From Alternaria dauci (Eukaryota > Ascomycota > Dothideomycetes > Pleosporales > Pleosporaceae): a stretch of 64,000 nt of DNA. Below, piece by piece: positions 48,085-54,644 of the stretch. Below the pieces are notes generated by a model. That model did not search any database, was not told where the DNA came from, and saw only the letters and a list, made by a program, of their open reading frames with translations. Position numbers and translations under genes: made by a program. Where the stretch lies: contig NC_091280.1 in the NCBI RefSeq assembly GCF_042100115.1, forward strand, positions 1,116,001-1,180,000, in the 5' to 3' direction. Each line of letters starts with the position of its first letter. The stretch's first letter is position 1.

Positions 48085-50211
48085 TCACCAGCCAAAGCTC
48101 TCGGTATGTAGGTATACACCTTGCGCTCCCGTTCCTTTATGTATCGCCCTTTCATCACTCAAGCAAACGACGTCTTGCTTCACATCCGCCACTAAGCCCT
48201 GCGGCCCGCACACCACCACAGCACTTTCTCCTAGCGCCTGTTCCAATGACCGACGTATGATCTCGCGTGTTTTTGGTCGACCCGAGTATACCCCTATCGC
48301 AGGATGGACGACTACTTTCTGACTTGGCTCAATAGAAGATGGAGTAGATGGTACTAGGGAAGTGGGACGAGATGATGTATCAGCTTTGGGTTTCGAGCAT
48401 TCACATACGGTTTTACCGGCCGAAGGAGAATCCGACTCGTCGATGGCAGCGCGGCAACAGCATATGCCATTCGGACTACAGGATGTTTGTTGGACATCGA
48501 GGTTTTCAGAATTGAGAGATGCGACTTCTTGGTAGCCTTCCTTCTTTGTCGCGCTACCCTGTACTGTCGTTTGTTGAAGTGATCTATACTGGACTGCGCC
48601 GTGCTTGACCTCATTCTGCTGCTGTGCCGCGTTTGTCGTGGGTGCTGTCACACCGGAGAGTAAGGAATTGTGCTCTTCGGTAAGGGATTCGTCGCAGGTG
48701 ATGTAAATCGTCATCTCGAGCTTGACGTCGCGAAGTGATTCTTGTAGCGTTTGGAATTCGTTGTATATGGAAGAGAGTTGCTCGGAAAACCAACTGAGTT
48801 GGCCTCTACTCTTGACGACCCACACGAAACGAATGTGTCGTGTGACGGCGCCTGTCGGCGTTTTCAAGAACAAGGTGCTACCTGGGCTGCCACGAGCATT
48901 CTCTTTCCAGCCTTGGAGTAGATCGCGTAGGAGCGGAAGGGTGAAGGTTCCACCGGTGCTTCCTGCAAGGAGAACGACGCTGTCGAATTGACGAAGTGGT
49001 CTCAAGGTGCCGTAGGGACCTTCTATGGCCACGGTTCTGGCTTTCTCGGTTCGTCCGACCAGACGGCTGGATTTCTCCCCGTGCCTGAAGAAACGTTCTG
49101 TCCCACCTTTTTCAGCCTTGACATAGAATTCCATCCTTCCATCTTCTGGAATCGATGCCACGGTGAACGGGTGGCTTTGAAGTGGTACTAGGGAATGACA
49201 AGATAGGTATACATGCTGGCCAGGGGTCCAGTTGATAGGAGGATTGGGGATGACGATTCGTGTTGTGTTGTGTGGAAGAGGTGTAAATTCGGCTTTGCAA
49301 GTCCAGAAGCCATCGATCTGGCCTCGTTTCTTCAATGAAGGATGGAACAGGGACGTGTTGATGTATACTAGTCGGAGCGCGCGGAAGACGCGGTCAAATA
49401 CGAAAAAGGCAACAGGTGCCCAAATATAGCCGTGCATTTCGATAGGGGTATGGATGTAAATGAACGCAAGGAATACCGCAAATGAAATGATGTGTTGGAT
49501 AACAAATATCTCGTAGTTCCAGCCACGGATCGGTGTCATGGAACTGAAGACGATCCACGCCAGCGAACACCAGGCGGCGAGGCCTTTCCATACAATCTTG
49601 TTATTCTTGAGTTGATAGCCGATGTAGTCATACGGTGCCCAGGCACTGAAAAAGTACCCCATGTGCATAGTAGCTGTGAGAAGCATACATCGAGCGCACC
49701 ACCGGTGTAGCCAATTCAGTCGTTCGTAGCTGACACCGCTGAGATACCCAATAACATTATTCTTGCCCGCTAGCAGGATGATTATAGGTAGTTGGGCGAT
49801 TGTAACGACACCGCAACGGAACCCAATATTTTCCATACTGAACTGGTCCGTCACGTCGAAGCCGTACAAACATAGAACGACTAGGACTACCACGTTTGCT
49901 GCAACTAGAGATGTTCGGCCGACTGTTGGTAATCTGAGTATGCGGCCCTTTAGTGGTATGCGTATGGAGAAATTGGATGCTTCGCGCATTAATGCGAAGA
50001 GTGTCGCGTTTCCGAGAGCGAACCATGACCTCGGCTTTGCTGGTGTCTGCGAACCGTCTCTTATTGCAAGCATTCTTTGGCGGTACAGCACGTAGCTGTA
50101 GACGTTGAAGAGTGTTGCGATGCCGACTGCTGCACCTACTACTGCGTAGTAAAAATCTGGCCATTCTTCGAGCACGGGCAACATGCTCATCGACATGTGA
50201 TTGTGACTCAT
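48085..50211 (-). CDS. Ferric/cupric reductase, FRE family
   Basis: Plasma-membrane haem and flavin reductase that passes electrons from NADPH to Fe(III) or Cu(II) outside the cell. Intronless, 708 residues. The N-terminus MSHNHMSMSML is Met/His-rich. A membrane region of about seven segments contains the haem-ligand helices NWLHRWCARCMLLTATMHMGY and VIQHIISFAVFLAFIYIH. The FAD site is HPFTVASIPEDG, the NADPH site is LLAGSTGGTFTLPLL, and VVVCGPQGLV lies near the end. Within the NADPH domain, about residues 580-630, there is an extra Ser/Gln-rich stretch with clustered cysteines (SCSPNGICCC, then TVCECSK). It is divergent from a Ctr copper transporter across 990 bp, so cupric reductase activity is a reasonable inference. 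Confidence 0.94.
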   Translation of the reverse strand: MSHNHMSMSMLPVLEEWPDFYYAVVGAAVGIATLFNVYSYVLYRQRMLAIRDGSQTPAKPRSWFALGNATLFALMREASNFSIRIPLKGRILRLPTVGRTSLVAANVVVLVVLCLYGFDVTDQFSMENIGFRCGVVTIAQLPIIILLAGKNNVIGYLSGVSYERLNWLHRWCARCMLLTATMHMGYFFSAWAPYDYIGYQLKNNKIVWKGLAAWCSLAWIVFSSMTPIRGWNYEIFVIQHIISFAVFLAFIYIHTPIEMHGYIWAPVAFFVFDRVFRALRLVYINTSLFHPSLKKRGQIDGFWTCKAEFTPLPHNTTRIVIPNPPINWTPGQHVYLSCHSLVPLQSHPFTVASIPEDGRMEFYVKAEKGGTERFFRHGEKSSRLVGRTEKARTVAIEGPYGTLRPLRQFDSVVLLAGSTGGTFTLPLLRDLLQGWKENARGSPGSTLFLKTPTGAVTRHIRFVWVVKSRGQLSWFSEQLSSIYNEFQTLQESLRDVKLEMTIYITCDESLTEEHNSLLSGVTAPTTNAAQQQNEVKHGAVQYRSLQQTTVQGSATKKEGYQEVASLNSENLDVQQTSCSPNGICCCRAAIDESDSPSAGKTVCECSKPKADTSSRPTSLVPSTPSSIEPSQKVVVHPAIGVYSGRPKTREIIRRSLEQALGESAVVVCGPQGLVADVKQDVVCLSDERAIHKGTGAQGVYLHTESFGW

Positions 50212-51201
50212 GATGTGCGCCGCTGTGACCTTGCAACCCTTGTTTGACTGCTAATTTCAGGCCTGTAGTAAATGCGAAGTTGGGTGTTTGCGAATGACGA
50301 ACAGGCGAAAGCCCAGCCTTGGTATTTATCGCATGCTGGCTCGGTCGAAACCAAGTCTAAGATGTAGATAGGGCGATGGCTCCTTTGGCTGCTGAGTGAC
50401 GGGTGCGACAATACAGTCTAGTACATTGGAAGGTGGAAAAGATGTGACAGGGCCATAGGAGTAACGAAGAACGATAGTGATTTAGAAGGAGTGTCACACA
50501 TGGAGCAACTCCAGACACGCTTCTGGAAATAATCAACATGCTTTGCTAGTGCCGAGTGTAATCAATCGCCCTCAGATGCAGGCTCGATGCACTGCGGGGC
50601 TTGGATTACCAGTGGGCACTCTGCTGGCCGTGGCGTAGATTAAGCTTCACGCGCTAACCGAGTGCGGCTAATTATGCTCAAAGTCGCTCCTTGGAACTTA
50701 CGGCTCTCCGAACGTCGCCCATTCGTTTGCAGTCACTTGCAGCGCGCGCCGTGACCCATTGAAGGTGCAGGTGCATCGCTGCAGGCCGTCCGTGGCTTCG
50801 AGATTACTCTCTCTTACTCGTAGTCGGGAAGCCGTTGCCGAGAAATGTGCTCACATGCCCTGACGCTTCACGCATCAGCCCAGACTTGACATTTTCTTGG
50901 GTGTCGCAAGATCCTACTCAATCACCCAACTCGCATGTACTGCAACACGAAACCAACTCCTCCAGGCCGAGTGTTCATGCTCAAATCTCTTCACGCGCGC
51001 AATCGGAACCAGTGAATGTGTAACCCCCCACAACGTACCAAGGACTCTTAAGCGATCATCTTCCCAGTACCGAGTTGGCAGTCTGGAACTCAATATTTAA
51101 TTTTTGCTACCTAATCTCCCCGCATCACCTAGACGCACGCTTTCCTAAACCTCGTCGCCAGAAATATTCTCATCGGTTACACGCACACCCAACTTGGCAC
51201 C
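50212..51201. promoter_or_regulatory. Shared promoter region of the metalloreductase and copper transporter
   Basis: 990 bp between two divergent start codons, with no coding sequence supported. The hexamer TGCTCA occurs three times on the plus strand: 50675-50680, 50848-50853 and 50978-50983. The core resembles the Mac1-type copper-response element (TTTGCTCA in budding yeast). A role in copper control is inferred. Confidence 0.5.
50846..50853 (+). promoter_or_regulatory. Candidate copper-response element TGTGCTCA
   Basis: An exact TGTGCTCA, 349 bp upstream of the copper transporter start. As I recall, this octamer is the site reported for the Aspergillus copper factor AfMac1; that recollection should be checked. 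Binding here is inferred. Confidence 0.4.
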
Positions 51202-51840
51202 ATGGTCGCTCACGAGGGTCACGATACGGCTACCAGTTCGATGGACATGGGCGGCATGGATATGGGCACATCGTCACATGGCAGCATGGCAATGGCATTC
51301 TTCACAGCGACGAATACCCCGCTATACTCCGAGACATGGACGCCTACAACTGCTGGTCAATACGCTGGGACATGCATCTTCCTTATCTTCCTCTCTATTC
51401 TCCTCCGTGCAGTCTTTGCGGCAAAAACCTTCCTTGAGGTCAGGGCAGTCAAGAGCGCCTTGAAGCGACGATATGTTGTCGTTGCTGGCGAAAAAGCGGT
51501 TGTCGACAAAGCTACGGACGACGCCAACTCGATGACGGGTATTCTTACAACAAATGGTGTTCAAGAGGATGTGCGGGTTGTCTCAGCGCCGGTATCTCAT
51601 ATCCAACCCTGGAGGTTCAGTGTGGATTTGCCCAGGGCACTCCTAATGACGGTTGCAGCTGGTGTCGGGTACCTCCTGTAAGTGATACACATGCCTGTAC
51701 ATTGCTTTGGTCGAAACTGACTCCTCAACAGCATGCTGGCAATTATGACATACAACGTGGGATACTTCTTGTCTGTGTTGGCAGGTGCTTTTGTCGGCGA
51801 ACTGGCATTTGGCAGGTTCAACCACGTTACGGACCATTGA
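51202..51840 (+). CDS. Ctr-family copper transporter
   Basis: Trimeric high-affinity Cu(I) importer, probably of the plasma membrane. Exons 51202-51677 and 51732-51840 give 194 residues. The extracellular N-terminus is a Met/His-rich copper-binding segment (SSMDMGGMDMGTSSHGSMAM). TM1 is AGTCIFLIFLSILLRAVF, followed by a long cytosolic loop. The intron splits TM2 and splicing restores the MxxxM selectivity motif as MLAIM. TM3 contains the GxxxG packing motif as GAFVG (VLAGAFVGELAF). A start at 51075, in another frame, is a shadow. It lies between a metalloreductase and a BIM1-like gene, which suggests a joint role in copper uptake. Confidence 0.95.
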
Positions 51841-52560
51841 GCCTTGGACTCACAACCGCACAAATGTGTTCATAGGGAAAGCTGTCATGACAACCTTGCT
51901 CGTTCACATAAGCGCTCCAATTGATCCATGATTCACGGAACCTTCTTCATCGCTCCATGTTTGGCCAAATGTCTTGAATCATAAAGTGCTCACGTTGTCG
52001 TTGGATCCACAAACCTATTTCCACACGAGGTCCCAGCATGCGATTCGTGAACATGTTATTCCCATGATTCTGATCTTCACAGCCGGTGCAGAACCCAATG
52101 CAGGCTTCGGCGTGTGACGGGAATCCTCACGGGTGGAATGGATCCATGTTCGACGCTAGTCGCTTCGGCAGTAGAGCCACTGCTTTGGGAATAAACTTGC
52201 TCACCCAGCGTGCCACAACATACCGTACCCTGATAACTTGCACATTAGCGAGTGCCGCCGCCGATGCATAATACCTCTCACTTACTGTTCTCTGCTTAGA
52301 TCGTCAGCCTATTTGAAACCAAGGTTAAATGCATGTGGCCATCAGTGCTAACGCGTGAGGCAAGTGGTTCATTGGACGGAATGCACGGAATGACAAGATG
52401 CATTCCAAACTAAGCTGCAATAAATACGGCAGGGCCTCCCAGCACTCACTTGCTGTCTGTTGTTGCATTCTTGGCTTTCTCGCGCTCCTCTATACAAAGT
52501 CAGCCGCATCTTCCTCTCTATCTTGACACCGATACCTACATCCACGTCCAAACAGTCAAC
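51841..52560. promoter_or_regulatory. Promoter region of the BIM1-like gene, with two TGCTCA copies
   Basis: 720 bp between the copper transporter stop and the BIM1-like start. Two plus-strand TGCTCA copies lie at 51987-51992 (AGTGCTCA) and 52198-52203 (CTTGCTCA, one base from TTTGCTCA). They are about 570 and 360 bp before the start codon. No coding sequence is seen. Confidence 0.45.
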
Positions 52561-53272
52561 ATGCTCTCCAACAGCGTCCTCGCGCTCGCGTTCCTACCTC
52601 TCGCCCTCGCCCATTTTCAACTCGAGTTCCCTGCGTCGCGTGGGTTCACCGACGACACCCAGGGAAACTTCCCCTGTGGTGGTTTTAACGATGTTCAACA
52701 ACAACGCACCGACTTCCCCATTGGCGGTGGCCCGATACAACTGCACATGGAGCATCCGCAAACAAATGTCGCTGTGTACATGGCCATTGGCGATAACCCA
52801 GGAGATGGGTTCAACATTGTCGCACAACAGCAGCTTCAGGTCTCAGGACTTGGAGATTTTTGCTTGGGTTCGGTTGCTGTACCAGCGGGATTGAACGTTT
52901 CGGACGGCACCAGGGCCACAATACAAGTGGTTACCAACAACCACGAGGCGGGTGGTCTATATCAGGTAAGCCTACCATGCATCGAATTCGTTGTTGCTGC
53001 GCAATTACTAATAGCCTCAGTGCGCGGATGTGACTTTGGTCAACAATGCCCAGATCAACTTCAATGATAACTGCAAGAACCAAACAGGCATGAGTGTTAC
53101 CCAGGAAAACATATCTGGCAACCCCAATGGAACATCGACCGACGAAAGCCCCAGTTCGGCCACCAGTGGAGCTGCAGCATCGTCCACACCGACTACCGGC
53201 GCAGCGACACAAGCGAAGGCCGCCTCGTGGGCTTTGGGTGCTGTTGGCTTAGCTGGAATGGCGATGCTTTAG
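52561..53272 (+). CDS. BIM1-like (X325, LPMO-fold) GPI-anchored copper protein
   Basis: BIM1-like proteins share the LPMO fold but bind copper for acquisition (Cryptococcus Bim1, working with Ctr1) or other cell-surface roles rather than cutting polysaccharide. Exons 52561-52965 and 53021-53272 give 218 residues. The signal peptide MLSNSVLALAFLPLALA ends so that the mature protein begins HFQLEFPASRGF, with the N-terminal His needed for the copper histidine brace. Four cysteines (FPCGGF, DFCLGS, QCADV, DNCKN) can form two disulfides. A Ser/Thr/Ala-rich stretch precedes a hydrophobic C-terminus (ALGAVGLAGMAML), a GPI-anchor signal. A 5' part of the frame is open from 52450 but lies before the start. 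It is the third gene of the copper-related trio. Confidence 0.9.
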
Positions 53273-53776
53273 ATAGTGGCGCGTTGAGGTAGAGAGCTGT
53301 ATACCACTGTTAACTGTTCCCTTGCGTGCCTTGCGTCTTCCTGCCACCAAGTGAGGTATGCATTTTACATCTCGCAAGAACCAGACGAGAAAGCCGTTGT
53401 GCATAAATGCGCTGCGAGTGACAAATGACGTCCGTCGTGAGCCGATGGTTAGTGTTGAGATGCGAGTTGGATGACGGGCGTGTTGCGCCCATGTGTGGAA
53501 GGAGTCTCTGATGTTGCGGGGATCTAGAGCTTCCAACAAGCGAGGCATGCACACAATCGGCGCTTCCGTAGAGTTTCGCCGATGGCCGCAACAACTTCAC
53601 CAGCAACACCACACTCCAAGTCTCGGCCACGATCCCGAATTTAGGTGCGTACCGGTCCCGCCTTCACTCTAAGCTCCAGCCCTCGCTCGAATCTGCGAAG
53701 AAATCGGACCCGACCGCTGACGTCCACTTGCACAGCTCTCCCCACCTAGTCATCCCTCGTCCTCAACACCGCAAAT
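53273..53776. other. Intergenic region
   Basis: About 500 bp containing the BIM1-like 3' flank and the NAC-beta promoter. No gene is seen. Confidence 0.5.
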
Positions 53777-54644
53777 ATGGATCAAGCAAAGTTGGCGCGC
53801 ATGCAAGCGTCAGTGCGCATTGGTATGTACGCCTTTTCTGGGCTGGAATTACCTTGAGGGGGACAGTTGGCCACATCAATCGACGTCTCCATTGCTAACC
53901 TGTGCGTGTTTAGGGTAAGCAAGCCTCTTCTCCTCGAATTTTGACAGCCCCGCACCACAAAATATCTAGAGTCCGCGAAACCACCACCACGACCACCCCC
54001 CACTAGCGAGCGGCATAACAGCGCTGAGATGGACACGAGGGAATCGAGGCTAACTCGATATATAGCGGCAAGGGTACTCCCCGCAGGAAGGTCAAGAAGG
54101 TCCACAGGGCTGCTGGTACCGACGACAAGAAGCTCCAGACCGCGCTGAAGAAGCTCAACGTCCAGCCCATCCAGGCCATTGAGGAGGTCAACATGTTCAA
54201 GAGCGACGGAAACGTCATCCACTTCTCGGCACCAAAGGGTACGTCATCCTGAAGCTCCGTAGTATGAGGGGTTGGGAGGGGAGCTTGGATGCACAGCAGA
54301 CATGCTTCTATCTGAACCCGCTCCCCCAATACCTCCCCGACATTCGCACTATGCCATGTACTAACGCGCGCACTTGTATAGTCCACGCCTCAGTACCTGC
54401 CAACACCTTCGCCATCTACGGACACGGTGAGGACAAGGAGCTGACAGAGCTCGTCCCCGGCATCCTCAACCAGCTCGGCCCAGATTCGCTCGCATCGCTA
54501 CGCAAACTTGCCGAATCCTACCAGAGCATGCAGAAGGAGAAGGGCGAGGATGGCGAGAAGAAGGACGACGACGATGAGGACGACGATGACATCCCCGACC
54601 TTGTCGCTGGCGAGAACTTCGAGTCCAAGGCTGAGGTCGAGTAA
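53777..54644 (+). CDS. EGD1: Nascent polypeptide-associated complex subunit beta
   Basis: With NAC-alpha it binds nascent chains at the ribosome exit. Four coding exons fit: 53777-53822, a single base at 53914, 54066-54238 and 54382-54644. They sum to 483 nt and 160 residues. The one-base exon G is needed: exon 1 ends at the first base of a Gly codon and exon 3 begins with its last base. Splicing yields [11 protein letters not shown], the invariant NAC-beta ribosome-binding region. Without the single base the sum is 482 and the frame is lost. Both flanking introns have strong signals: GTATGT...GCTAAC...TTTAG and GTAAGC...GCTAAC...ATAG. The NAC domain ([32 protein letters not shown]) is normal, and the tail is acidic. 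Confidence 0.95.

Follow-up and report, generated by a model that had tools for sequence, protein, structure and literature searches.

Positions 48085–53272 of the window, a stretch of 64,000 nucleotides of DNA from the plant-associated fungus Alternaria dauci (contig NC_091280.1), hold three neighbouring genes. They encode a metalloreductase of the FRE type, a copper channel of the Ctr family and a BIM1-like protein of the histidine-brace type, and are referred to below as FRE, CTR and BIM1. The trio is real, conserved and functionally coherent, and we interpret it, with a probability of about 0.85, as a copper-starvation uptake locus. The sequence-only reading had proposed a cluster of these three genes at this place, and both the coordinates (the outer coding ends of the intact trio are exactly 48085 and 53272) and the Pfam domains confirm its presence. 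FRE and CTR lie head-to-head over 990 base pairs (bp), and BIM1 follows downstream of CTR after a gap of 720 bp:

48085..50211, minus strand: FRE-type metalloreductase (probable cupric reductase), 708 amino acids (aa), without intron; Pfam Ferric_reduct/FAD_binding_8/NAD_binding_6
51202..51840, plus strand: Ctr copper channel, 194 aa, exons 51202–51677 and 51732–51840; Pfam Ctr
52561..53272, plus strand: BIM1-like/X325 histidine-brace protein with signal peptide and glycosylphosphatidylinositol (GPI)-type tail, 218 aa, exons 52561–52965 and 53021–53272; PF20238
50212..51201, no strand: divergent FRE/CTR promoter, 990 bp; TGCTCA at 50675, 50848 and 50978
51841..52560, no strand: CTR-BIM1 intergenic region, 720 bp; TGCTCA at 51987 and 52198

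All Pfam matches exceed the curated cut-offs: Ferric_reduct (6.2e-27), FAD_binding_8 (7.7e-19) and NAD_binding_6 (2.6e-17) in FRE, Ctr (7.3e-40, covering profile positions 1–151 of 151) in CTR, and PF20238 (BIM1-like_dom, 3.9e-39) in BIM1. CTR has one GT-AG intron (51678–51731), its splice sites picked by the reading frame and the GTAAGT..CAG pattern rather than from cDNA, and BIM1 also has one (52966–53020).

In the mechanism that we propose, the reductase in the plasma membrane would pass electrons from cytosolic NADPH via FAD and two haems to Cu(II) at the cell surface, yielding Cu(I); the putatively GPI-anchored BIM1-like protein, placed between wall and membrane, would keep copper in its histidine brace and then hand it on, probably to Ctr; and the Ctr trimer would let Cu(I) pass through a filter of methionines. 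At low copper, a Mac1-type regulator would turn the trio on by acting at the shared FRE/CTR promoter and in the CTR-BIM1 gap. By analogy with other fungi, joint function and co-regulation of the three genes appear probable in A. dauci.

Conservation of the neighbourhood

The comparison of locus tags was restricted to species with sequential-type tags of one prefix and with at least two of the three proteins among the rows listed. Of the nine species that could be compared in this way, eight have tags of the trio that follow each other directly or with one gene between them:

Plenodomus lindquistii, NX059_008450/51/52: all three genes, consecutive tags
Alternaria panax, G6011_07213/15: two of the trio, one gene apart
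Curvularia clavata, yc1106_08340/42: two of the trio, one gene apart
Coniothyrium glycines, ACN47E_007701/02: two of the trio, consecutive
Ascochyta rabiei, EKO05_0006550/51: two of the trio, consecutive
Kalmusia, N0V90_005888/89: two of the trio, consecutive
Pleosporales sp., ACEQ8H_003149/50: two of the trio, consecutive
Plenodomus biglobosus, J1614_004829/30: two of the trio, consecutive

Conserved adjacency in Dothideomycetes, which had been named as a check, is thus found in most of the species judged, with one exception. Eleven species with JGI-style protein numbers, which do not track gene order, were set aside from this count; their proteins sit on equal-sized contigs. When contigs were matched by exact size, 71 sizes proved common to at least two of the three homologue lists and 23 to all three (including 7,153, 14,989, 62,925, 65,494 and 69,010 bp). 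Twenty-six of the 71 do not exceed 100 kb, and five of these carry all three proteins, the shortest being that of 7,153 bp; one of the matched sizes, 918 bp, could not accommodate both genes and must have arisen by chance. Among the 51 BIM1 contigs of at least 100 kb, 35 have a counterpart of the same size in the FRE or the Ctr list, 18 of them in both; for long contigs, equal size indicates at best that the genes share a contig, not that they are adjacent.

Searches in all six frames of the genome (34.9 Mb in 10 contigs, with the window on C9 of 2,642,276 bases) detected at least four Ctr genes (five exon matches), at least three BIM1-like genes, at least 14 Ferric_reduct loci (16 matches) and two copper-fist genes. 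Two of the four Ctr genes are head-to-head with FRE: besides the pair in the window, there is a second divergent Ctr(-)/FRE(+) pair on C1 (L027 3344–6487; C1 5037843–5040986), with 606 bp between the start codons and two TGCTCA in this gap, whose Ctr ends in CCA, like the CtrC/Ctr3 type. An origin of the two pairs by recent duplication was considered and rejected: the window and C1 FRE proteins share 23% identity over the aligned part, and the Ctr of the window has no C-terminal Cys pair, unlike the paralogues on C1 and C7 (ending in CCA and CCG), the two of the three paralogues (the third is on C6) with a readable end. When the FRE of the window was compared with the 13 other FRE extracts, 12 matched at 22–27% identity and one gave no match. 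Near the BIM1 paralogues on C2 and C1, no Ctr or FRE was noticed by sight among the large frames, and of the four frames scanned there, one is a purine-synthesis enzyme and one a kinase, while two had no Pfam match. At the position where signal cleavage is expected, the BIM1-like paralogues L030 and L031 read AHT or AHF; elsewhere they are diverged.

The small intergenic regions of fungi, and nothing else, speak for a chance adjacency of three unrelated genes. This explanation is very unlikely, to the point of being negligible, because the neighbourhood recurs in many genera and because the same genome contains a separate, distantly related Ctr/FRE pair, also head-to-head; we therefore reject it.

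Related systems in other fungi

According to the sequence-only reading, a trio of this kind had not been described in ascomycetes. This was wrong: the arrangement is already known from Aspergillus fumigatus, where Afu6g02800 (putative GPI-anchored protein), Afu6g02810 (copper transporter) and Afu6g02820 (metalloreductase) were reported as adjacent on chromosome 6 by Sugui et al. in 2008 (PMC2481287; here and below, statements on published systems refer to the accessible parts of the cited papers). The three genes were co-induced and jointly deleted, and were expressed more highly in hyphae with normal neutrophils than with those from chronic granulomatous disease (log2 values of 11, 8 and 3 are listed; PMC2481287). 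Afu6g02810 appears as CtrA2 in a table of PMC6514546. The A. fumigatus homologues of the Pseudogymnoascus destructans BIM1 (VC83_03095) and FRE (VC83_03096) are given as XP_747797.1 and XP_747795.1, respectively (PMC13208438); since these accession numbers flank one gene, Afu6g02800 is probably BIM1-like. Thus, as in A. dauci, a putative GPI protein, a Ctr and a metalloreductase are adjacent, with the transporter central by locus number, a likeness drawn from the published description and the locus numbers, not from orientation or sequence. In contrast, the A. fumigatus trio was framed as an oxidative-stress and iron/copper set, and its GPI protein was not termed BIM1 in the accessible part of PMC2481287.

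In P. destructans, BLP2 and FRE have consecutive locus tags and are both induced by copper withholding (PMC12113139). Aspergillus nidulans AnctrA and AnfreC share a common Mac1-bound promoter and are adjacent in 110 of the 127 species with AnctrA (PMC7705104), and hence resemble the Ctr and FRE of the window in their adjacency, but AnctrA is Ctr3/CtrC-related with a C-terminal CC, like the C1 pair of A. dauci and unlike the Ctr of the window; the term bim1 does not occur in the text of this paper. Fusarium oxysporum ctr3/fre9 and ctr1b/fre12 are likewise divergent Ctr/FRE pairs and direct Mac1 targets, but no BIM1 member was reported in the accessible part of PMC11563359, the text of which has 0 occurrences of bim1. 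In the basidiomycete Cryptococcus neoformans, Cbi1/Bim1, a GPI-anchored histidine-brace protein, interacts with the Ctr1 channel and works together with it (PMC9258870); the likeness to A. dauci is drawn at the level of the proteins. No report that puts BIM1 into this trio throughout Dothideomycetes was found in the open-licence literature, screened mostly by titles and abstracts; the assignment of BIM1 to a conserved trio and a Cys loop in FRE, described below, are possibly new.

The BIM1-like protein and the Ctr channel

All 39 aligned homologues of BIM1 keep H18, which follows the signal peptide, and H65, in agreement with the earlier suggestion of a BIM1-like protein with an N-terminal His. 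The signal peptide is predicted to be cleaved just before H18, which would make this His N-terminal. A PDB sequence search at E 0.01 gave LaX325 as the sole match (6ibh, 4.2e-13), and the AlphaFold2 model of P0003, a homologue with 91% identity (mean predicted local confidence, pLDDT, 73; ten-residue blocks of residues 21–170 average 76–95), has LaX325 as the best fold match (E 3.3e-11, TM-score 0.79 by target length, 35% identity). LaX325 (PDB 6ibh, 6ibi) shares the fold, and both brace His positions align; it differs in coming from Laetisaria arvalis and in being only ~35% identical to P0003. D138, conserved in at least 90% of the 39 homologues, aligns with an Asp of LaX325 6ibh and is, as judged from the alignment, a candidate for the fourth copper ligand. 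The C-terminal part, of low confidence in the model, comprises a Ser/Thr/Ala-rich stem and a C-terminal helix, and the protein may be GPI-anchored.

The X325 fold is similar to that of lytic polysaccharide monooxygenases, and loss of Cbi1 in C. neoformans changes wall integrity, with some effects independent of Ctr1 (PMC9258870). Could the BIM1-like member, then, mainly shape the wall (chitin/chitosan), with an indirect relation to copper, so that the locus would serve copper uptake together with wall remodelling? We regard this as improbable: purified Cbi1 was without the redox activity typical of most sugar-modifying enzymes (PMC9258870), the fourth copper ligand of X325 is an Asp, the conserved D138 aligns with an Asp of LaX325, and the BIM1 gene is found near CTR and FRE in other Pleosporales. 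A role in handing copper over to Ctr is preferred.

The next gene downstream of BIM1 encodes a beta subunit of the nascent polypeptide-associated complex (NAC):

53777..54644, plus strand: NAC beta subunit gene (EGD1-like), read by eye from the sequence and end codons

The last frame of this gene, scanned alone, gave no Pfam match. The gene is outside the copper set, yet it is a syntenic marker adjoining BIM1. Among the BIM1 homologues, A. dauci ACET3X_009076 ranks first, with 100% identity across 94% of the query. In the database, the gene model of A. dauci (P0002, 348 aa) joins BIM1 and NAC beta across 52561–54644, and models combining BIM1 with NAC (PF01849) number eight among the 120 BIM1 rows listed, that of A. 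dauci included. We judged this fusion to be an annotation chimera and not a real protein, on the basis of gene models and sequence: the fused model loses the tail and stop codon of BIM1 as well as the normal start of NAC. A naming error seems to have spread as well: 15 of the BIM1 proteins listed are called nascent polypeptide-associated complex subunit beta although they have no NAC domain.

In CTR, the MxxxM (MLAIM) and GxxxG motifs pointed out from the sequence are both present, the latter as GAFVG. With the full-length Ctr match, MLAIM in the second transmembrane segment (TM2), GAFVG in the third (TM3) and a Met-rich N-tail, the protein exhibits the three-segment architecture; the hydropathy peaks are at 55–73 and 146–186, TM2 and TM3 not being cleanly resolved. 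MxxxM..GxxxG is kept in 52 of the 54 full-length Ctr homologues (69 of 120 when all rows listed, shorter proteins included, are counted). The comparison with the Ctr1 chimera 6m97 gave E 9e-4 over the whole sequence, with no single stretch significant. CC within the last 25 residues occurs in none of the 54 full-length homologues, and some Cys there in four.

The reductase and its Cys-rich loop

All 50 aligned FRE rows, that of the window included, share without exception the candidate haem ligands H169/H183 and H240/H254 as well as H347-P348-F349-T350 (FAD motif) and C668-G669-P670 (NAD motif); we take the His pairs to be the bis-haem ligands, HPFT to mark the FAD site and CGP the NAD site. 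Together with the three Pfam domains, these residues bear out the proposed assignment to the FRE-type reductases. Two further elements were recognised in the protein:

48397..48480, minus strand: coding part of the Cys-rich motif C578 x5 CCC(584–586) x16 C603xC605, which lies in a variable loop within the NAD domain of FRE
50182..50211, minus strand: Met/His-rich N-tail of FRE, MSHNHMSMSM, for which Met/His were counted across homologue rows

The loop is hypervariable and mostly disordered (model pLDDT below 50 at residues 513–583 and 596–632; whole-model mean 69), and inside it lies the Cys motif CGPDGTCCC...CxC (alignment consensus CGPxGTCCCRTTVDE...CCC). C584, C586 and C605 occur in every one of the 50 rows, C603 in at least 90% of them. 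Over 93 FRE rows, identity to the query amounts to 85% in the Cys columns versus 31% for the other loop residues and 71% for residues 310–500. The C.C..C.C pattern is found in 115 of 121 FRE sequences (the query and 114 of the 120 homologues listed), among them those of Neofusicoccum, Cryomyces, Rhizodiscina and Lophium, which we take to be outside Pleosporales; it is missing from P0143, P0160, P0171, P0191, P0200 and P0231, three of which are shorter than 620 aa. Within the A. dauci genome, the 13 other FRE loci (14 extracts) showed no such motif, an absence only partly tested, since the longest frame reaches 588 aa in just five of the extracts. As to the N-tail, 76 of the 93 rows (the query plus 92 homologues) have at least three Met or His residues among the first 15, versus an average of 0.65 in random 15-mers from the same proteins; the 17 rows with fewer may in some cases carry wrong starts. 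No description of the Cys-rich loop with the Met/His-rich N-tail in FRE was found in the open-licence literature, screened by title and the start of the abstract.

The Cys loop resembles a Cu(I)-thiolate site and could act as a feedback sensor. We tentatively suggest, while considering it rather unlikely, that the reductase has a copper sensor of its own: the metallothionein-like Cys cluster in the cytosolic loop would bind incoming Cu(I) and damp or uncouple the enzyme, placing the feedback on the reductase and not on the channel, and the outer Met/His tail would gather copper for the channel.

FRE enzymes can reduce both iron and copper, and many of the homologues are named ferric-chelate reductase. 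Nevertheless, a locus serving iron as much as copper, with FRE chiefly a ferric reductase, is in our estimate an even less probable alternative than that of wall remodelling. Neither iron permease nor ferroxidase is among the Pfam matches of the five flanking window frames scanned (BTB, protein kinase, pyridine-nucleotide oxidoreductase, RNase_PH and one without Pfam match), in A. fumigatus, the growth of the triple-deletion mutants on low iron was normal (PMC2481287), and the Met/His tail and the Cys loop suit Cu(I). FRE is thus more probably specific for copper.

Promoter sites and the copper-starvation reading

A. fumigatus MacA binds TGTGCTCA (PMC6514546), and the Mac1 motif of F. oxysporum is DHNTGCTCA (PMC11563359). 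The exact TGTGCTCA occurs at 50846–50853 in the FRE/CTR promoter; as regulatory evidence, we set it aside as uninformative when taken alone (one-mismatch scan: 123 versus 125). The shorter TGCTCA is found five times in the 1,710 bp of the two gaps versus 1.6 expected from dinucleotide shuffles (P 0.023), all five fit DHNTGCTCA by eye, and when the window was scanned in 73 sliding stretches of the same length, none reached five. All five in 50212–52560 are on the plus strand, i.e. in the direction of CTR and BIM1. The Ctr on C7 has four TGCTCA in the kilobase upstream (L028 3560–4559; P 0.016 in shuffles), the promoter of the C1 pair taken alone gives P 0.052, and four control stretches hold 3, 1, 0 and 0. 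Four copper promoters pooled (the two gaps, the C1 pair and the C7 Ctr) hold 11 TGCTCA versus 2.9 expected (P 0.00025). The Mac1-type enrichment at the locus is modest and suggestive only.

Several points weigh against the copper-starvation reading. The pooled enrichment was obtained for promoters that the analyst had selected as copper genes; each single gap of the locus is weakly enriched (P 0.056 and 0.163); the control with three TGCTCA is the promoter of the C1 BIM1 paralogue (P 0.169); and the exact TGTGCTCA occurs seven times in the window versus 3.6 expected, with 9 of 100 shuffles as high. With respect to gene order, the exception among the nine species is Didymella heteroderae, where the BIM1 and FRE tags (E8E12_005723 and E8E12_005606) are 117 apart, and 16 of the 51 BIM1 contigs of at least 100 kb match neither the FRE nor the Ctr list, which may reflect real losses or the effect of 120 rows listed. 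In P. destructans, the tags of the Ctr genes are distant from the BLP2/FRE pair (PMC12113139). Deletion of all three genes in A. fumigatus abolished growth with menadione, but the susceptibility of the mutants to peroxide and neutrophils was not raised and, as mentioned, low-iron growth was normal; a low-copper growth test of them was not seen in the accessible part of PMC2481287. PMC8425704 lists Afu6g02820 with the genes that high copper up-regulates more strongly in the wild type than in an aceA mutant, a response at odds with a gene for starvation alone; that study also found ctrA2 to be down-regulated by copper. Finally, for A. dauci itself the copper-uptake reading is built on sequence and on published data from other fungi.

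Implications

The trio links a protein of the histidine-brace type, about whose role little is established beyond Cryptococcus, with a Ctr and reductase partnership that recurs in a large group of ascomycetes, and fused models of BIM1 with the neighbouring gene hide the BIM1 gene in several genomes. The conserved Cys loop provides a concrete test of a possible control of copper uptake at the reduction step. The trio as a whole is a natural unit for testing the putative transfer of copper from BIM1 to Ctr.

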